Positions 2,224-33,105 of a stretch of 64,000 bases of DNA are shown here, piece after piece (positions within the stretch are counted from its first letter, which is position 1; each line of letters opens with the position of its first letter). Made by a program: the position numbers and the translations under genes. This DNA comes from Pseudofrankia inefficax. Its GTDB lineage: Bacteria; Actinomycetota; Actinomycetes; Frankiales; Frankiaceae. A model generated the notes under the pieces. The model was not told the DNA's origin. It did no database searches and was given only the letters and a program-made list of their open reading frames with translations. Location: positions 6,076,001 to 6,140,000 of the forward strand of contig NC_014666.1 of the NCBI RefSeq assembly GCF_000166135.1. Direction: 5' to 3'.

Positions 2224-4178
2224 ATGACCGTTCCCTCGGCCGATCTGGAGCTCGCCTCCCTGTTCCCGCCGGCGACGCGCGAGGCCTGGCAGAAGCTGGT
2301 GCTCGGCGTCCTGCGCAAGTCCGGAACCGCAGGTGAGCAGGCTCTCCCGGCCGACGCCGAGGCCCTCCTCTCGACCGCGAGCTACGACGGCTTCGCGATC
2401 CACCCGCTCTACACGGCGGAGGACACGCCCCCCGTCGAGGCCGGTCTGCCCGGTCACGCTCCGTTCGTCCGTGGCCGGCGGGCCGAGGGCGCGAACGTCG
2501 AGGGCTGGGATGTCCGGGCGCTGCACACCCACCCGGACGCGAAGGTGACGGCCGAGGCGATTCTCGACGACCTCGAGGGCGGGGCCACGTCGATCTGGCT
2601 GCGGCTGGCCGCCCCGTCGGCCGACTCCGGCGAGGTGCTCTCCGCCGAGGCGCTGCCGGACGTGCTGCGCGAGGTCTACCTCGACCTGGCACCCGTCGTG
2701 CTGGACACCGGTGGCGACGCGGTGACGACGACCGCCGCCGCGGACGTGCTGCTCGCGCTCGCCGGAGTGCGCGGGGTGGCGCCCTCGGCGGTGCGGGCGA
2801 CGCTCGGCGCCGACCCGCTCGGCTTCGCCGCCCGCACCGGGCTCGGCGGCGACAAGCTCACGGCACACCTGGACGAGGCGTCCCGGCTGGCCCAGCGTGT
2901 CGCGGCCGACTACGCGGGCGTCCGGACCTTCGTCGTCGACGCGACGCCGTACCACGACGCGGGCGGCAGCGACGCGCAGGAGCTGGGTGCCTCGCTCGCG
3001 ACCGGCGTCGCCTACCTGCGCGCGCTGACCGGGTCGTCCCGGGCGGCCGGCGAGGAGGCGGGCGCGCTCGACGTCGCCGGGGCGCTCGCGCAGCTGGAGT
3101 TCCGGTACGCGGCCACCGCCGACCAGTTCGCCACGATCGCCAAGCTGCGCGCCGCCCGGCTGCTGTGGGCCCGGGTCGCCGAGGTCTGCGGCGCGGCCGG
3201 CGCCGACCGGGCGCAGCACCAGCACGCGGTCACCTCGTCGGCGATGATGACGCGCCGCGACCCGTACGTGAACCTGCTGCGCACCACGATCGCCGCCTTC
3301 GCGGCCAGTGTGGGCGGCGCGGACGCCGTCACCGTGCTGCCGTTCGACGACCGGCTCGGGCTGCCGGACGGCACCTCGCGCCGGCTGGCCCGCAACATCC
3401 AGGCGCTGCTGCATGACGAGTCGAGCCTCGCCCGGGTGATCGACCCGGCGGGGGGCTCGTGGTTCGTCGAGTCGCTGACCGCGGAGCTGGCCGAGGCCGC
3501 GTGGGCGTTCTTCACCGAGATCGAGCGGGCCGGCGGGATGGCGGCGGCGCTCGCGAGCGGGCTGGTCGCCGAGCGGATCGACGCGACCTGGGCGCGGCGC
3601 CGGGAGGACCTGGCGCTGCGCCGGGCCCCGCTGACCGGCATCAGCGAGTTCCCCAACGTCGCCGAGACGCTGCCGGAGCGGTCCCCGGCCCCGGCGCGGG
3701 CGGCCGCGCCCGGCGGGCTGCCCGTCCGGCACTACGACGACGACTACGAGGCGCTGCGGGCCAGGTCGGACGCCCACCTGGCCGCGACCGGTGCCCGGCC
3801 GGTGGCCTTCCTCGCGACGATCGGGCCGCTGGCGACGTTCACGCCGCGGGCCACGTTCGCGGCGAACCTCTTCCAGGCCGGCGGGCTGGAGACCCCCGCC
3901 GCCGGCCCCGGCGACGACCCGGCCGCGATCGCCGCCGCCTTCACGGCGTCCGGGGCGAAGATCGCCTGCCTGTGCTCGTCGGACAAGATCTACGCGGCGA
4001 GCGCCGCGCCCGTCGCCGCCGCGCTCAAGGCGGCCGGCGCGACGCACGTCTGGCTCGCCGGCAAGCCGGGTGACCGGGCCGACTCCGACGCGGCCGCCGG
4101 CATCGACGGTTACGTAGCCACCGGCGGCGATGCCGTCGACGTCCTTCGCACCGCGCTCACGAAGGCCGAGGTCGCCTG

Positions 4179-4179
<1 letters not shown>
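2224..4179 (+). CDS. mutA: Methylmalonyl-CoA mutase small (beta) subunit
   Basis: A 651-residue non-catalytic partner of adenosylcobalamin-dependent methylmalonyl-CoA mutase, which interconverts L-methylmalonyl-CoA and succinyl-CoA in propionate and odd-chain metabolism. The N-terminal TIM-barrel region is conserved ([47 protein letters not shown]). The C-terminal flavodoxin-like domain lacks the cobalamin DxHxxG motif (it reads [12 protein letters not shown]), as expected for the small subunit. ATG 2224 is chosen over an upstream in-frame codon because family N-termini begin here ([16 protein letters not shown]). The stop overlaps the mutB start by one base (TGATG), which indicates translational coupling. 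Confidence 0.95.
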
Positions 4180-6413
<2,234 letters not shown>

Positions 6414-6451: not shown

Positions 6452-7540
6452 GTGACGGAGGTTCTCGCCCGCGTGCCACGGCCCGAACCTGGCCAGCCCG
6501 AAGCTGGCTCCCAGGTGCCAGCCCGCCGTCCCGTCGACGTCGACGCCTACGCCGAAGGGGTGCTGGCGAACAACAGGACCATGGTCGCGCGGGCGATCAC
6601 GCTGGTCGAGTCCAGCCGGGCCGACCACCGGGCCGCGGCCCAGGCCCTGCTGGTGAAGCTGTTGCCGCACACGGGGAAGGCCCGGCGGGTCGGCATCACG
6701 GGTGTCCCCGGCGTCGGCAAGTCGACGTTCATCGACGCGCTCGGCACGATGCTGACCGGTCAGGGCCACCGCGTCGCGGTGCTCGCCGTCGACCCCTCGT
6801 CGACCCGCACCGGCGGCAGCATCCTCGGCGACAAGACCCGGATGGCCGACCTCGCGATCGACCCGAACGCCTTCATCCGGCCGTCGCCGACCGCCGGCAC
6901 CCTCGGCGGCGTCGCCAAGGCCACCCGCGAGGCGATCGTCATCATGGAGGCCGCCGGCTACGACGTCGTGCTGGTCGAGACCGTCGGCGTCGGCCAGTCG
7001 GAGACGACGGTCGCCGACATGGTCGACACCTTCCTGTTCCTGACCCTCGCCCGCACCGGCGACCAGCTCCAGGGCATCAAGAAGGGCGTCCTGGAGATCG
7101 CCGATGTGATCACCGTGAACAAGGCCGACGGGCCGCACCTGATCGACGCGCAGCGGGCCGCCCGGGAGCTCGCCGGCGCGCTGCGGATGCTGCGCGCCCC
7201 CGACGACGGCTGGCGCGCCCCCGTGCTGACCTGCTCGGCGATCGAGAAGACCGGCCTGGCCGGGGTCTGGGAGCAGGTCGTCGCCCACCAGGACATGCTC
7301 GACGCCGCCGGCCTCCTCGCCGCCCGCCGCCGCCGCCAGCAGGTCGACTGGACCTGGGCGATGGTGCACGACCGGCTGCTCACCGACCTGCACACGCACG
7401 CATCGGTCCGCGCGCTCGCCCCCGACCTGGAGCGCCAGGTCCGCGACGGCACCCTCACCCCGAGCCTCGCCGCCGACGCCCTGCTCGCCGCCTACGGCAC
7501 CGACGGCACCGACCGCTCGACACAGCAGGCGGCCCTTTAG
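6452..7540 (+). CDS. meaB: MeaB/MMAA-type G-protein chaperone of methylmalonyl-CoA mutase
   Basis: A 362-residue P-loop GTPase of the G3E MeaB/ArgK group that protects and reloads mutase with adenosylcobalamin. Visible motifs are the Walker A GITGVPGVGKST (about residues 84-95), AVDPSSTRTGGSILGDKTRM, the switch segment VLVETVGVGQSE, and NKAD for guanine recognition. The start is a GTG at 6452 with a poor ribosome site, so the exact N-terminus is uncertain by a few codons. Its position directly after mutA-mutB supports the role. Confidence 0.95.
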   Translation: MTEVLARVPRPEPGQPEAGSQVPARRPVDVDAYAEGVLANNRTMVARAITLVESSRADHRAAAQALLVKLLPHTGKARRVGITGVPGVGKSTFIDALGTMLTGQGHRVAVLAVDPSSTRTGGSILGDKTRMADLAIDPNAFIRPSPTAGTLGGVAKATREAIVIMEAAGYDVVLVETVGVGQSETTVADMVDTFLFLTLARTGDQLQGIKKGVLEIADVITVNKADGPHLIDAQRAARELAGALRMLRAPDDGWRAPVLTCSAIEKTGLAGVWEQVVAHQDMLDAAGLLAARRRRQQVDWTWAMVHDRLLTDLHTHASVRALAPDLERQVRDGTLTPSLAADALLAAYGTDGTDRSTQQAAL

Positions 7541-7544
7541 CCGC

Positions 7545-8906
7545 TCACGCCGGCTGGTAGGTCTTGTGGAAGGCCTCGACGAGCGTGACCCAGTTGGCCG
7601 ACGGCACCAGCTCGCCGGTCTGCGTGTGCTTGATACACGTGTCGCTGGCGAACGCGCGGTGCTCGTACACGGCGAGCCCTCCCTTGTCGGCGGGGAAGGC
7701 GCCCATGCCGTAGTACGTCGACTTGTCCTCGGCGCTCGTGGGGAACTCGTCCAGATGTGCGCGTTCCCGGCCTCGGATTCCCGGTGGCGGCGACGCGAGG
7801 TCCTTGGGGAGAGCCGCTCCCTTGTCGGCTGCCTGGCGCCCGTCAAGGACGCTGGCGCACCAGTCCTGGTACAAGGGGCCGCCATCAGTCAGATGCCAGT
7901 GGTCGACCTTCGTGCTGGTGTCGCGCACGCCGTCCTTCCAGCCGGTGCCCTTCCGGCTGACGGGTACCGGCTGAAGCCGGTCCTCGAGTGGGTCCGCACG
8001 GTAGGGAACGACCATCAGGATGAAGTTCCGGCTCCAGCTCAGGTCGGGCCACAGCACGTCACGCAGCACGTCCTTAGTGATCCCCGCCCGCAGCCGTTCC
8101 GGGATGAGCCGGAACATCGCGTAGAAGTCCGTGCGGTGGAGAATCTCGTACAGGGACTTGGGCGCGTCCCGGTTGACCGCGACCCGGCAGATGTCTCCGC
8201 GGCCCGTCTTCAGGGGAGCGCTCCCCTTGTATTTCAGCGAGGCGAGGTACGGGCTGTCCCACTCGAAGACCCGCCACAGGTCGTGGTCGCGGGGCAGCCC
8301 CGGGCGCCCCTCCTCGTCGACGGCATAGTACGGAATGTCGTAGACGAAAGACTTGAGGAGAAAGTAGTGGCAGGCGGCGAGGAATCCGTCCATCTCCGGG
8401 CTGCCGGCCACCTCCGGACTGATGCTGTGCTCCTTGAACCGAAGCGCGGCCATTTGGCGCAGCGACGTCAGCGTTTCCACGGTCACCAGCGCGCCGGTAT
8501 TCGCCAACGCGGTGGTCAGGAAGCGGCGCATCGCCGGCAGCGCGACGCCTACCGTGACCTGCGGCTTGGCCGCGAAGTCGAGATTCTTGACGACCATTGA
8601 CCCCGTTTTTACCCAGGTGCCTTTCTCGAATGTCTGCGTATCCCTGAACCTCACGACGCCCGCGTTTCCGCGGGCCTCCCTGGCGAGCGCCGTGGCCAGG
8701 ATCTGGGCTGTCGCCGCCGCTTGGCGTGCCGTGTTCAGGTCCTTGCAGGGCGCCGTGACGAACTCCAGTTCCGCCCACCGGGGGTCCTCATAGGTCTCGT
8801 CACCTTCCAGGGTGACCAGACCGTCGTCCGACTTCCAGGCGACCTCACGCGGGCGCACTCCGTCGACGAAGTTGTTGCCGTTCGTCTGCAGCTCGAACCC
8901 GAACAC
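7545..8906 (-). CDS. Unrecognised protein, possibly distantly amidoligase/GCS-like
   Basis: A 453-residue protein. I choose GTG 8906 because a GGGGGAG ribosome site (8911-8917) sits four bases upstream. The frame runs 28 codons further but that part looks non-coding. The N-terminus VFGFELQTNG followed by AELEFVTAP weakly recalls the opening strands of glutamate-cysteine-ligase-like amidoligases (GFE, later E-VT-P). I cannot find a full ATP site, so this is a hint only. The rest is a soluble, mixed alpha/beta protein without membrane segments or repeats. It converges on meaB and is divergent from an HNH gene. Its lower GC and AAG/GAA use suggest an accessory gene. Confidence 0.6.
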   Translation of the reverse strand: MFGFELQTNGNNFVDGVRPREVAWKSDDGLVTLEGDETYEDPRWAELEFVTAPCKDLNTARQAAATAQILATALAREARGNAGVVRFRDTQTFEKGTWVKTGSMVVKNLDFAAKPQVTVGVALPAMRRFLTTALANTGALVTVETLTSLRQMAALRFKEHSISPEVAGSPEMDGFLAACHYFLLKSFVYDIPYYAVDEEGRPGLPRDHDLWRVFEWDSPYLASLKYKGSAPLKTGRGDICRVAVNRDAPKSLYEILHRTDFYAMFRLIPERLRAGITKDVLRDVLWPDLSWSRNFILMVVPYRADPLEDRLQPVPVSRKGTGWKDGVRDTSTKVDHWHLTDGGPLYQDWCASVLDGRQAADKGAALPKDLASPPPGIRGRERAHLDEFPTSAEDKSTYYGMGAFPADKGGLAVYEHRAFASDTCIKHTQTGELVPSANWVTLVEAFHKTYQPA

Positions 8907-16690: not shown

Positions 16691-19774
<3,084 letters not shown>

Positions 19775-29240: not shown

Positions 29241-31577
29241 TCAGGCCCGGCCGGAACCGGGTGCCAGGCCGTTGAGGATGTCGATCGCGTGCGTCAGGTC
29301 GCCGATGTTGACGAAGTCGACGGCGACGAAGTTCGGCCGGCGGTGACGGACGTCCTCGCAGGTGCTGGCCCGGGCGACGACGGTGGCGCTGGCGTTGTCG
29401 GCGAGCGCGGCCCGCCGGCTCGGGGCGGCCGTCGTCAGCCAGTGGTTGACCAGCAGCAGCCTGGCGTCCGCCGACCCTCGCTTCACCGCGCAGCCGGTCA
29501 GGTCTGTCGCGGTGCGGGCGTCGAACGGCGTGTCCGAGCCGTAGCGGTAGAACGACCGCAGGAAGCTGCCCGGCGTGTCCTGGCTCTCGGTGAACATGAC
29601 CAGCCGGTGGCCGGAGCTGATCATCTGCCCCAGCGTCGGCCAGGCGCCGCCCGGGTCGGCGGGCGGGGTGAGCACGGTCTTCCCGAGCCCCGCGGCCTCG
29701 ACCGCGCCGATGATCTCGCTGGCCGGCGCCTCGTCCTGGATGATGACCGTGACGACCTCGGTCGGGTTCCGGTTGAGCCAGTCCCCGATCGCGCGCAGCT
29801 GCGCGGTGAAGTCGATCGCGCCGAGCTGGCACATGTCGTGGCAGAGCCACAGACCGGGCCGGGTGGACAGGGCCCCGCGGGTCAGCGGCTCCAGCGCCGT
29901 GCGTTCCGACGGGCTGAGCGCGGCGAGGGCCGTCTGGACCTCCGCGGGGGTCGTCCAGTGGTGCACGTCGATCAGCAGGCCGCGCACGCCGAGGTCGAGC
30001 TGGTGGACGATCGACGGGTCCTGCCCGGCGCCGAGGAACTGGTCCTCGCTGTCGGCCATCGCGTTGTGGCTGGCCGCGTAGCTGACCTCGTCGTAGTGCC
30101 GGTCGCACAGGCGGGCCGAGCCCTCGCACACCACCCGGGCGTCCGCCGCGGCGCCGGGGAACGCCGCCCAGGTGACCGCGATCAGCGTCGGGATGACCAC
30201 GACGGTCGTGGCGACCACCCGGCGCCACCGGGCGTGGCGCTCCAGCCGGGCGGACAGCGCGACCAGCAGCGACACGCCGGTGATCGCGCCGCCGAGCACC
30301 AGCATCCAGATGGTCAGCCGCAGGAAGTCGCTCTCGATGCCGCGGTAGGCGGTGGCGCCGAAGTCGGTGAGCACGTGCGCGGCGCCGGGCGGCAGCTTCG
30401 AGCCGGGCTTGTCCAGCGCGGTCAGCGGGTTCGGCAGCGTCAGGCGCATCACCACGCCCAGCAGCAGCGAACCGGCCCCGGCGGCGAGCGCCGTGTAGCC
30501 GACGGCCCGGACCGGTGACCGGCCGCGGCCCCGGGCGATCGTGACCACGCCCACCAGCCCGCCGAACATCGCCAGCACGCAGGCCAGGATGATCACGGGC
30601 AGCCGCTGGGACAGGTCGTGCAGCCGCTCGACCGCCCGGATCGTCGGTTTGTGGCCCAGGTCCGACAGCGACACCCCGAGGTCGAGCACGGTCCCGTCGA
30701 CCAGCTTGCCGCGCAGCTGCGCGATGGCCTGGTCGTCGCCTCGGAACAGCGGCGGCCCGAGGACCGCCAGCGCCCCGGCGACGTCACCCTGCAGCAGCAG
30801 GGCCCGGGCGGGCGCCTCGACGGTGGCCCTGGTCGCCGGGTCGAGCCGGGTGAGCACCGCGTCGAGGACCAGGTCGACGTCCTGCGGGCGCAGTCGCATC
30901 GTCGGCAGGTTCGTCGGCGGCTTGCCCGCGGCGACGGCGTCGAGCGCGGCGAGCACACCGTCGGTGAAGTCGGTGACGCTCGACACCTGGTAGGTGGCGC
31001 CCGCGCCGAGCTCGCCGGCGATGTACCGGTTGGCGAGGCCCGAGATGTTCGCGAACAGCGGGCGCAGGTCGGCGGTGAGCACGACGTTGTTCTGGTCGCC
31101 CCGCAGGTAGCCGACGATCCGGTCGATCTGCTCGTCCGTCAGGCCCTCGACCGTGGACGGCGGCAGCACCGTCCGCAGGTTCGCCGTGATCAGCGTGCGG
31201 TCGATCGGGAGGCCGGCCATCAGGTCGTCGACGGCGGGGTCGGGCAGGATCTCGGTGTAGATCCGGTCGTAGGCGTGCACCCGGGTGAGGCCCTGGGTGT
31301 AGTAGTCCGGCGACAGCACGGTGGCGCGCACGGTCAGGATCACCAGCAGCGGCAGCCACGAGAGCACCACGAGCAGGGTCAGCGCCGCCTGGGCCAGCAG
31401 CCACCAGCGGGTGTCGTCGCGGCCGGACCGGCGGGCGAGCCCGAGCCGCACCCGGCCTCCGCCGCGGACGCCGCGCCGGTCCGGGTCCTCGAGGCCGGCA
31501 GTCGGCGGCTCGCCCGCGGCCGGCGGCTCACCCGTCGACGGCGGTGCCTTTGTCCCGTTCCGTTGCCCGAGCCGCAC
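29241..31577 (-). CDS. Membrane-anchored PI-PLC X-domain-like phosphodiesterase
   Basis: A 778-residue protein. A Pro-rich cytoplasmic start leads to a transmembrane helix (WWLLAQAALTLLVVLSWLPL), an outer domain of about 300 residues, four more helices (one reads LPVIILACVLAMFGGLVGVV), then a C-terminal domain with EVSYAASHNAMAD and LLIDVHHWTT, the two catalytic histidines of the PLC-like superfamily. It should face outward and may cleave a phosphodiester in an envelope lipid or polymer. GTG 31577 is preferred over ATG 31685 because 31600-31729 looks like promoter DNA. If wrong, 36 residues are missing. Confidence 0.78.
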   Translation of the reverse strand: MRLGQRNGTKAPPSTGEPPAAGEPPTAGLEDPDRRGVRGGGRVRLGLARRSGRDDTRWWLLAQAALTLLVVLSWLPLLVILTVRATVLSPDYYTQGLTRVHAYDRIYTEILPDPAVDDLMAGLPIDRTLITANLRTVLPPSTVEGLTDEQIDRIVGYLRGDQNNVVLTADLRPLFANISGLANRYIAGELGAGATYQVSSVTDFTDGVLAALDAVAAGKPPTNLPTMRLRPQDVDLVLDAVLTRLDPATRATVEAPARALLLQGDVAGALAVLGPPLFRGDDQAIAQLRGKLVDGTVLDLGVSLSDLGHKPTIRAVERLHDLSQRLPVIILACVLAMFGGLVGVVTIARGRGRSPVRAVGYTALAAGAGSLLLGVVMRLTLPNPLTALDKPGSKLPPGAAHVLTDFGATAYRGIESDFLRLTIWMLVLGGAITGVSLLVALSARLERHARWRRVVATTVVVIPTLIAVTWAAFPGAAADARVVCEGSARLCDRHYDEVSYAASHNAMADSEDQFLGAGQDPSIVHQLDLGVRGLLIDVHHWTTPAEVQTALAALSPSERTALEPLTRGALSTRPGLWLCHDMCQLGAIDFTAQLRAIGDWLNRNPTEVVTVIIQDEAPASEIIGAVEAAGLGKTVLTPPADPGGAWPTLGQMISSGHRLVMFTESQDTPGSFLRSFYRYGSDTPFDARTATDLTGCAVKRGSADARLLLVNHWLTTAAPSRRAALADNASATVVARASTCEDVRHRRPNFVAVDFVNIGDLTHAIDILNGLAPGSGRA

Positions 31578-31728
31578 ATGCCCCAACCTACCGAGATCTC
31601 CGGCCTTCGATGATGACGTCCCGGCCAGCGCATTCGGCGAAAACCGGTTCGGACATTTCCCTACATAGCGGTAGAGTGACGCCATTCTGAAGATCGAGAT
31701 CTAGCCGTTCCAGCCCGGAGACAGTGCC

Positions 31729-32463
31729 GTGACCAAGCTGAACCAGATCATCGCCATCGAGAAGGGCGTCAAGGCCCGCGCCGGCCGCGAGGTCACCGAC
31801 CTGCAGAGCTCCACCCAGAAGGACGCGCTGCTCGCCGGCATCAGCCGCACATACCAGCCGCGCGACGAGGACGGCGACCAGCTTCCGGCCGAGGGCACGA
31901 AGGTCCAGGTCCGGGTCGAGGAGGTGCTGGCGCAGCTCTCGTCCGTGCTGGTCCGGCTGCTCGACGTGGTCGCCACCAAGGACATCGCCAACTGCGCGGC
32001 GAAGGCCGACGTCGTCGTCGACGGTGTGCCGCTGCTGCGCGACGTCCCGGTGTCCTACCTGCTCTTCCTGGAGAAGCAGCTCACCGACCTGCAGGCGTTC
32101 CTGGCGAAGCTGCCGGTGCTCGACCCGGCCGAGGACTGGTCCTGGGACGCGGCCGCCGGCGTCTACCGCACGCCGACGACGCGGACCGTGCGGTCGCGCA
32201 AGGTGCCGAAGGTGCTGGTCAAGTACGAGGCGACCGAGCACCACCCGGCGCAGACCGAGGTGTTCACGGTCGACGAGCCGGTCGGTGACTGGGCGACGGT
32301 GAAGTTCTCCGGCGCGCTGCCGGCCGAGCGGCGCACGCAGCTGCTGGACCGGGTCGTGCGGCTCGCGGAGGCCGTCAAGGTCGCCCGCGAGTCCGCGAAC
32401 CTGTTCGACGTGACCGACCAGACCGTGGGCCGGCCGGTGTTCGACTACCTGTTCGCCCGATAG
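31729..32463 (+). CDS. Conserved actinobacterial protein of unknown function (DUF7873-like)
   Basis: A 244-residue soluble protein, start GTG 31729 with GGAG upstream. Strongly patterned blocks include LNQIIAIEKGVKARA, LLAGISRTYQPRDEDGDQLP, VPVSYLLFLEKQLTDLQAFLAKLPVLD and VKFSGALPAERRTQLLDRV. I recall close relatives across Streptomyces annotated only as a DUF. A lower-GC promoter-like stretch lies at 31650-31715. The permuted tRNA-like units start about 280 bases downstream on the same strand and may share its transcript. No function is inferred. Confidence 0.8.
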   Translation: MTKLNQIIAIEKGVKARAGREVTDLQSSTQKDALLAGISRTYQPRDEDGDQLPAEGTKVQVRVEEVLAQLSSVLVRLLDVVATKDIANCAAKADVVVDGVPLLRDVPVSYLLFLEKQLTDLQAFLAKLPVLDPAEDWSWDAAAGVYRTPTTRTVRSRKVPKVLVKYEATEHHPAQTEVFTVDEPVGDWATVKFSGALPAERRTQLLDRVVRLAEAVKVARESANLFDVTDQTVGRPVFDYLFAR

Positions 32464-32494: not shown

Positions 32495-32560
32495 GGCCGT
32501 CGGCCCGCCGCCCCGCCAGTGCCGCATCCGACAAGGCTGGCCTCGACCCGAGACCAGCAA

Positions 32561-32633
32561 GATCGCTGTTTTCGCCCTCGCGTGGCTGTAACCGCAGCAG
32601 TTTTGTAGCCACGTGAGGGCCAAAACGACGATC
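32561..32633. repeat. Dispersed palindromic element, copy 2
   Basis: The arms 32561-32587 and 32607-32633 pair with a few mismatches. Outer ends are GATCG/CGATC, and the arms include TTTTCGCCCTCGCGTGGCT versus AGCCACGTGAGGGCCAAAA. It lies between the DUF7873-like gene and the permuted tRNA-like units. Confidence 0.8.
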
Positions 32634-32745
32634 AAGCCAGCTGGCCGACCTGGCCGGACCCCGCGCTAGTCTCGGCGGCGGGCCGGTTGGCCCCTGATCT
32701 CCCGCCTGGAGCGGCGGGATGCGCCCACCATTGGGCGTGAAAGCT

Positions 32746-32862
32746 GAGACTCATACTCAAGATGACGACGGACGGTGTCAGTGGGGGTTCGACTCCCCCT
32801 CCCGGCTCACACCCGCCGGGATAGCCCAATGGCAGAGGCAGCCGGCCATGATTCTTAGTCTC
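32746..32862 (+). tRNA. Circularly permuted tRNA-like unit A
   Basis: In order: T arm GGGGG-TTCGACT-CCCCC (32783-32799), 3' acceptor TCCCGGC (32800-32806), T73, a 7-base spacer, then 5' acceptor GCCGGGA (32815-32821), TA, and the D arm GCCC-AATGGCAG-AGGC (32824-32839). The acceptor strands pair 7 of 7. A flanking helix GAGACT/AGTCTC (32746-32751 with 32857-32862) encloses the unit. The anticodon stem is poor: GCCGG at 32841 versus ACGGT at 32772, three canonical pairs plus a G-U. CCA is not encoded. It could be a degenerate or type-II-like copy. Confidence 0.55.
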
Positions 32863-32906
32863 TCGCTCCACAACTCAACACCGGGCCACCTCGCCAGACC
32901 GACCGA

Positions 32907-33012
32907 CGGCCGGCAATCTCAGTCGAGGCCGCGGGTTCGACCCCCGCGCGGCGCTCCAACACGCGCCGCTAGCTCAATAGGCAGAGCGCGACTACTCCAG
33001 TCTGACCGGCCG
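32907..33012 (+). tRNA. Circularly permuted tRNA-like unit B (complete cloverleaf)
   Basis: In order: AGTCG (39-43, 32921-32925), AGGCC variable loop, T arm GCGGG-TTCGACC-CCCGC (32931-32947), 3' acceptor GCGGCGC (32948-32954), T73, CCA (32956-32958), ACAC, then 5' acceptor GCGCCGC (32963-32969), TA, D arm GCTC-AATAGGCA-GAGC (32972-32987), G26, CGACT (27-31, 32989-32993). Acceptor 7/7, anticodon stem 5/5, T stem 5/5 and D stem 4/4 all pair. An outer helix CGGCCGG/CCGGCCG (32907-32913 with 33006-33012) closes the junction. The loop join is unresolved; CTCCA at 32995 could give a Trp-type CCA anticodon. Confidence 0.65.
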
Positions 33013-33053
33013 CACCAACCTGGCCTGGCGTACGCATGGTGGCCACCCTCGGG

Positions 33054-33105
33054 GCCCAGGGAAGGGTAATCCCTGGGCTCCACCAATCTTCCCGCTCTTC
33101 GCGGG
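33054..33105 (+). terminator. Two consecutive hairpins after the permuted tRNA-like units
   Basis: An 8-bp stem GCCCAGGG/CCCTGGGC (33054-33061 with 33071-33078, 9-base loop), then CTCCACCAATCTT, then CCCGC/GCGGG (33091-33095 with 33101-33105). There is no long T run. They may end the plus-strand RNA or be part of it. Confidence 0.45.

Follow-up and report, generated by a model that had tools for sequence, protein, structure and literature searches.

Which kind of RNA is encoded at positions 32746-33012 of the window, the 64,000-nucleotide stretch of an 8.8 Mb actinobacterial chromosome from Pseudofrankia inefficax that was analysed here, where the parts of a tRNA twice appear in permuted order downstream of a gene of the protein family DUF7873? 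The initial annotation described two adjacent, circularly permuted tRNA-like genes, and this much is borne out by a renewed reading of the sequence, by counts at 174 DUF7873 loci, and by homologues: two tRNA-like units (A and B) in permuted order, conserved, covarying and tightly linked to DUF7873. The units are nonetheless probably not tRNA genes. Given the topology, the covariation, the model matches at DUF7873 loci and the precedent of the Y RNA YrlA, we consider it probable that the locus encodes a Ro60-independent, two-headed, Y-RNA-like mimic of tRNA with DUF7873 as its likely partner. The recurrence of the gene and RNA pair across many bacteria and phages would thus represent an overlooked RNA-protein partnership, not a set of new tRNA genes.

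Both units are encoded on the same strand 3' of DUF7873, with their T loops 148 nucleotides apart, and both follow the order T arm, acceptor 3' strand, short loop, acceptor 5' strand, and D arm (Table 1). Unit B is further enclosed by two basal stems, the 7-bp flanking helix P2 and an extra outer stem, P1, that the initial annotation had not listed. The exact spacing of eight bases between the acceptor strands, noted in the initial annotation, holds for both units here and is not general among homologues, in which the loop spans 4-48 nucleotides in unit A and 3-47 nucleotides in unit B.

The linkage to DUF7873 was assessed on relatives of the protein, at least 541 in genome contigs and 345 in viral contigs, from which the best 80 of each were taken; both sets are biased towards close relatives, and some viral loci are near-duplicates. 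A strict permuted-tRNA search was applied to both strands of a set of 174 DUF7873 loci, the present locus counted in. It required the T, acceptor and D stems, the pairing of these three being partly ascertained as a result. The zone extending up to 1 kb 3' of DUF7873 (170.6 kb in total) contained 258 strict matches versus 21 in the 2.70 Mb elsewhere in the same loci, on which count chance pairing was rejected. At least one strict unit was present at 161 of the 174 loci and both units at 94. A covariance model of unit B built from 32 sequences (R1), the training of which took in 14 loci of each best-80 set, matched full-length at all 80 genome loci (70-142 bits), and at 78 of the 80 viral loci with E <=0.01 (68 of these scoring at least 50 bits). 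Within the genome of P. inefficax, R1 recovered unit B with 99 bits (E 1.1e-22, 32889-33034) and unit A with 42 bits (32782-32857), together with eight weak matches off the locus of at most 25.9 bits, six of which overlap ordinary tRNA genes. Among 119 genomes of the phylum, full-length matches above 70 bits were confined to G000 and G107, which both carry DUF7873; the best match after these scored 54 bits. DUF7873 itself was found in 6 of 296 phylum genomes, with at least one strict downstream unit at all six loci and both units at five.

The pair is not restricted to cellular genomes. DUF7873 was also found in 73 phage records. All 12 phage loci inspected, from phages of Arthrobacter, Gordonia (two), Rhodococcus, Pseudanabaena (two), Microcoleus, Rhizobium (three), Vibrio and Klebsiella, gave a match to the unit-B model, the weakest being that of Vibrio phage D505 at 21.7 bits; the tRNA-like part of unit A was not clearly found in the Rhizobium and Vibrio phages. 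These phage copies sit between genes, in DNA that annotators pass over or, on at least one occasion, label in part as an odd tRNA: in the Klebsiella jumbo phage Centimanus (L241), a "tRNA-Stop(tta)" is annotated at 3746-3829, at the start of unit B (model match 3784-3902), and is probably a misread permuted unit. In the Microcoleus phage locus (L012), a HEARO RNA (RF02033, 129 bits) and an open reading frame (ORF) at 7184-8461 together occupy 6950-8461, between DUF7873 and the units (8557, 8804), an arrangement reminiscent of a mobile-element insertion. No third conserved neighbour emerged: once DUF7873 and reading frames that overlap the gene or the RNA are set aside, the most widespread group of ORFs was present at no more than 13 of 80 loci, with the reservation that coarse single-linkage clustering could hide one.

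Covariation provides evidence independent of the search for P1, P2 and the anticodon-like stem, which lie outside the strict criterion. RNAalifold recovered from an alignment of 54 unit-B sequences the T, acceptor and D stems and the two basal stems, amounting to 28 pairs of which 26 show two-sided changes. In these pairs, 96.5% of cells are paired, and the covariation score is 0.691 as compared with 0.217 for shuffled and 0.11-0.13 for slid alignments. P1 and P2 are paired in 96.3% and 89.0% of cells, respectively, with two-sided changes in all 12 of their pairs. The anticodon-like stem, the register of which shifts by 1-3 nucleotides among units, is fully paired (5/5) in 71 of 100 A units and in 86 of 121 B units, where re-pairing gives means of 18.6 and 21.7 (maximum 29 each). 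The core stems of unit A (T, acceptor and D) covary likewise across 59 sequences. Compensatory changes, the lack of which in homologues the initial annotation had named as grounds for abandoning its proposal, were looked for and are present in homologues. In addition, U8, A14, G18, G19, A21, G53, U54, U55 and C56 (tRNA numbering as assigned here) are invariant in the 54 B units; these are positions of the tRNA elbow, and their invariance makes an L-shaped, tRNA-like head likely for unit B.

Table 1. Features of the DUF7873 and RNA locus (coordinates of the window)
Feature	Position	Strand	Remarks
DUF7873 gene (PF25283)	31729..32463	+	244 aa; Pfam E 7.5e-107; proposed RNA partner; same-strand RNA neighbour in loci examined
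Unit A 5' flank with hexad repeat	32733..32782	+	CTGAGA CTCATA CTCAAG, core ~32744-32761; YTNA at lag-6 spacing; invariant columns
Unit A permuted tRNA-like domain	32783..32847	+	T arm, acceptor 3' strand, 8-nt loop, acceptor 5' strand, D arm, anticodon-like strand
Unit A T stem	32783-32787/32795-32799	+	5/5 paired; T loop TTCGACT 32788-32794
Unit A acceptor	32800-32806/32815-32821	+	TCCCGGC/GCCGGGA, 7/7; 8-nt loop 32807-32814
Unit A D stem	32824-32826/32837-32839	+	3 bp
Unit A anticodon-like strand	32842-32847	+	one mismatch with partner strand 32770-32775
Unit B basal-stem 5' strands	32892..32913	+	P1 32892-32897, P2 32907-32913, internal loop between; homologues ATCGACCG
Unit B permuted tRNA-like domain	32921..32993	+	YrlA model 31.3 bits; R1 99 bits
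Unit B anticodon-like stem	32921-32925/32989-32993	+	AGTCG/CGACT, 5/5
Unit B T arm	32931-32947	+	T stem 32931-32935/32943-32947, 5/5; T loop 32936-32942
Unit B acceptor	32948-32954/32963-32969	+	7/7; 8-nt loop 32955-32962
Unit B D arm	32972-32987	+	D stem 32972-32975/32984-32987, 4/4
Unit B flanking helix P2	32907-32913/33006-33012	+	7 bp
Unit B outer stem P1	32892-32897/33025-33030	+	CGCCAG/CTGGCG
Unit B basal-stem 3' strands	33006..33030	+	P2 33006-33012, P1 33025-33030
Strong hairpin 3' of unit B	33051..33081	+	arms 12 nt, 92% complementary; candidate 3' end or terminator

The flanks of the two units differ in their conserved motifs. In the internal loop between P1 and P2 of unit B, 79 of 133 units carry ATCRA, 90 carry TYAARYG and 67 carry both. 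The 5' flank of unit A contains hexads instead: over 105 such flanks, YTNA pairs number 185 at a lag of 6 and 101 at a lag of 12, as opposed to 0-17 at lags 1-5 and 7-11. Two or more consecutive hexads were found in 95% of the A flanks, compared with 2.5% of the 2100 control windows, and three consecutive hexads in 43 of the 105 versus 63 of 20000 controls and none of 134 B flanks. Short hexad runs also lie between DUF7873 and unit B in all five phage loci checked (L013, L014, L241-L243). Judged from this pattern, the hexads are a candidate protein-binding site.

The favoured reading can be set out along the following lines, in which the anatomy is shown and the cellular function is a hypothesis. 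A noncoding RNA of about 300 nucleotides, built from two Y-RNA-like modules, would be made from the strand of DUF7873 and 3' of it. Each head would fold like the body of a tRNA, with T arm, D arm and an acceptor stem closed by a small loop. The anticodon arm of unit B would offer no decoding loop and run on into P1 and P2 with their conserved internal-loop motifs, and unit A is preceded by the array of six-nucleotide CUNA repeats. DUF7873, a partner proposed from its linkage to the RNA, may bind the basal stem and/or the hexad array to form a ribonucleoprotein (RNP) in the place of Ro60. By analogy with YrlA, the two heads might then dock proteins that recognise tRNA, such as tRNA-modifying enzymes and PNPase, and the particle could tether or decoy tRNA-handling enzymes, the effect of docking being the least certain step. 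Such a scheme would offer the first functional lead for DUF7873 and would link Y-RNA-like tRNA mimicry to a protein other than Ro60; it supplies a concrete hypothesis as to the RNA, the protein and the binding site. A bolder form of it, to which somewhat less than even credence is given, sees here a new class of Ro60-independent RNP, in which DUF7873, perhaps as an oligomer, would read the CUNA hexads and the basal stem of unit B and present two different tRNA mimics simultaneously, the spread among phages and bacteria suggesting either an offensive or protective device in tRNA conflicts or a portable adaptor for RNA decay.

The precedent for these assignments is YrlA. The bacterial Y RNA structure 6CU1 superposes on tRNAs by way of a circular permutation, according to a passage of PMC11472068, so that the permuted order, for which the initial annotation knew of no standard case in actinobacteria, does have a precedent in bacteria. 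As described in a section of PMC8394870, the large basal stem of YrlA tethers Rsr, and its tRNA-like domain is modified by DusA and TruB and binds PNPase. YrlA (RF02553; 6CU1) and the present RNA share a permuted tRNA-like domain, acceptor strands joined by a loop, and a basal stem in the place of the anticodon loop. A YrlA-like basal stem, in which the 5' part of the RNA pairs with the 3' part, is found in unit B (P1/P2) and is not supported in unit A. The D-loop GG and the T-loop U54 U55 C56 that enzymes of the DusA and TruB type would need are invariant in the 54 B units. The two RNAs differ in that two tandem units are present here, with the basal motifs ATCGACCG / CTTAAACG in unit B and hexads before unit A, in the linkage to DUF7873, and in the Rfam score and the lack of a detected Ro60 considered below. 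The layout proposed here, in which a protein sits on the basal stem and a tRNA-like head is directed towards an RNA-processing enzyme, resembles that of the Ro60/Rsr-Y RNA-PNPase particle (RYPER), from which it departs in that DUF7873 has no detected relation to TROVE, the Ro60 domain, and that contact with PNPase is putative here. Hence, a permuted tRNA-like topology is already known from bacteria; no description was found in the open-licence literature of the RNA reported here, of its tandem arrangement or of its linkage to DUF7873.

DUF7873 itself provides few clues. The protein at this locus is 99% identical to one of Frankia sp. AgB1.9, and its AlphaFold2 model is of high quality (mean predicted local distance difference test 94.5, predicted template modelling score 0.71). 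Its sequence matched nothing in the PDB better than E 0.11. PHROGs and NCBIfam gave it no further name, PADLOC returned no match, Pfam returned DUF7873 alone, and no paper naming the family was found among the open-licence literature. The fold matches listed contain no TROVE entry, a relation to which may still exist. Beside the gene lies a divergent ORF (814 aa, window 29241-31685, minus strand) with no Pfam match.

Several observations weigh against the reading of a Ro60-independent Y-RNA-like mimic partnered by DUF7873. No strict match was obtained at 13 of the 174 loci, 11 of which still give a covariance-model match, and the viral loci L133 and L134 match neither the unit-A nor the unit-B model. 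R1 produced weak matches at E <=0.001 in 50 of the 119 phylum genomes; tRNA arrays likely lie behind these, to judge from the P. inefficax genome, the one in which this was checked and where six of the eight matches off the locus overlap ordinary tRNA genes. The 6-bp helix GAGACT/AGTCTC that was thought to enclose unit A, as the 7-bp helix encloses unit B, lacks support as a conserved element in that register: 66.8% of its cells are paired versus a shuffled mean of 64.5%, with no covariation, its sequence belongs to the conserved six-nucleotide repeat, and the unit-A model contains no flank pairs, whereas P2 of unit B does covary. The DUF7873 model showed no confident match to a known RNA-binding fold: one fold search of the PDB gave nothing at E <=0.001, and in a second the best row was 3kdq_A, an unknown protein (Z 9.1, root-mean-square deviation 8.3 over 147 residues). 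The Rfam YrlA model, with a gathering cut-off of 69 bits, is the best Rfam match to unit B at a permissive threshold (31.3 bits, E 8.7e-5), and neither unit B nor unit A (19.3 bits) attains that cut-off. Finally, TROVE was found elsewhere in the genome in four of five g3 genomes with DUF7873. It was also found in four of eight members of the genus, all four among the seven with DUF7873, leaving three carriers without TROVE; and in 8 of 296 genomes of the phylum sample, including four of the six with DUF7873, which runs counter to a clean separation. The co-occurrence within the genus is little above the expectation for independence, and Ro60 could take part where it is present.

Among the alternatives, the one that fares best, though it is tentative and rather unlikely as an account of its own, proposes that the tRNA-like heads are bait for toxins directed at tRNA, for anticodon nucleases or for defence effectors; such bait would be of use to phages, and bacteria would have acquired it competitively. 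It draws on the wide occurrence in phages, several of which have many tRNA genes around the RNA, on heads devoid of an anticodon loop, and on the suggestion in part of PMC7790460 that the tRNA-like domain of YrlA might competitively inhibit an anticodon nuclease; the absence of a PADLOC match for DUF7873 speaks against it. It is compatible with the favoured Y-RNA-like reading, being a version of its last step.

An ordinary Y RNA that works with Ro60 and has moved away from its usual neighbour would account for the topology, which is that of YrlA, and for the presence of TROVE in four of five g3 genomes and in four of the seven congeners bearing DUF7873. A Ro60 partner in the P. inefficax genome was rejected, however, since neither the TROVE profile, which does score in four congeners, nor a congener Ro60 protein used as query, in a search itself lacking a positive control, gave a match. 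TROVE was likewise not found in any of eight phage records, and three DUF7873 carriers in the genus are without it. Y-like RNAs of their own, differing in their flanks, lie near the Ro60 genes of L015-L018 and L187. On the Ro60-linked RNAs, R1 scores 24-46 bits, mostly over the tRNA-like core; two matches, at 38 bits, extend across the model, and L188 gives none. The YrlA model gives 34-56 bits on those of L015-L018 and, among the six DUF7873 loci tested, 33-38 bits on four, all below 69, and no match at the Rfam cut-off was found in L001-L018. This alternative is accordingly held to be unlikely. As a separate observation, at L187:150-670 (a congener) and L016:280-600 (a g3 genome), Ro60 genes are preceded by at least two Y-like RNAs that fall below the YrlA cut-off or were found with R1 only; the Rfam YrlA family may be too narrow for Actinomycetota.

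A cis-acting element in the 3' untranslated region of the DUF7873 mRNA, through which the protein would control its own synthesis or stability, appears just as improbable. It fits the location of unit A, on the same strand and shortly past the stop codon (the T loop lies a median of 110 nucleotides beyond the DUF7873 match), but two full tRNA-like domains with an invariant elbow exceed the needs of a simple autoregulatory site, and the HEARO element and ORF separate the gene from the RNA in the Microcoleus phage.

Least of all, and very improbable, would be true circularly permuted tRNA genes, as the initial annotation had it, with a precursor ligated across the anticodon loop and cleaved between the two acceptor strands to yield mature tRNAs. 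The order of the halves, the full acceptor, T and D stems and the anticodon-like stem would suit them, yet U33 occurs in 12 of the 75 A units and 37 of the 97 B units whose anticodon-like stem is fully paired, the genome has 46 ordinary tRNA genes covering all 20 amino acids, a loop of at most 13 nucleotides joins the acceptor strands in 96 of the 113 A units and 123 of the 145 B units, P1 and P2 covary beyond the anticodon-like stem, and the anticodon position is a long, asymmetric internal loop. It is because U33 is unconserved, the ordinary tRNAs are present and the acceptor loop is usually this short that the units are probably not tRNA genes. Neither ARAGORN nor Rfam at its cut-offs called a tRNA at the RNA locus, and tRNA genes or pseudogenes were rejected. 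The encoded CCA is the one feature that does point to a tRNA end; it is present in unit B of the window and comes directly after the first base of the loop in 52 of the 113 A loops and 53 of the 145 B loops, so that about half or more of the loops are without it and it fails as a general feature. The RNA thus shares with the permuted tRNA genes of algae and archaea a 3' half encoded before the 5' half and a spacer between the acceptor strands, and is set apart from them by the lack of a decodable anticodon loop, the capped acceptor, the covarying basal stems and the complete tRNA set. Transfer-messenger RNA (tmRNA), which also has a tRNA-like domain without an anticodon, is permuted differently and has an mRNA-like part, and no tmRNA match was obtained at this locus.

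A few minor observations may be recorded. Between DUF7873 and unit A, the window contains an imperfect palindrome (32535-32640; arms of 27 nucleotides at 32561-32587/32607-32633, 85% complementary) with at least 39 further copies in the same genome at 81-91% identity among the 40 candidates that were scored, resembling a miniature inverted-repeat transposable element (MITE) or a repetitive extragenic palindromic (REP) sequence. The distance from DUF7873 to the RNA is about 140 nucleotides longer at this locus than in the near relative L019. ARAGORN reports a 97-nucleotide tRNA-Trp at 19592-19688 of the window that is absent from the 46 Rfam tRNA matches of the genome and is probably spurious. 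The locus from Gordonia phage Phendrix (L008) contains a tmRNA at 4072-4600 (RF00023, 89 bits) in a record that has no such annotation, and a Cobalamin riboswitch (86.4 bits) lies 3' of the RNA units at 2797-2977 of L005, from a g3 genome.
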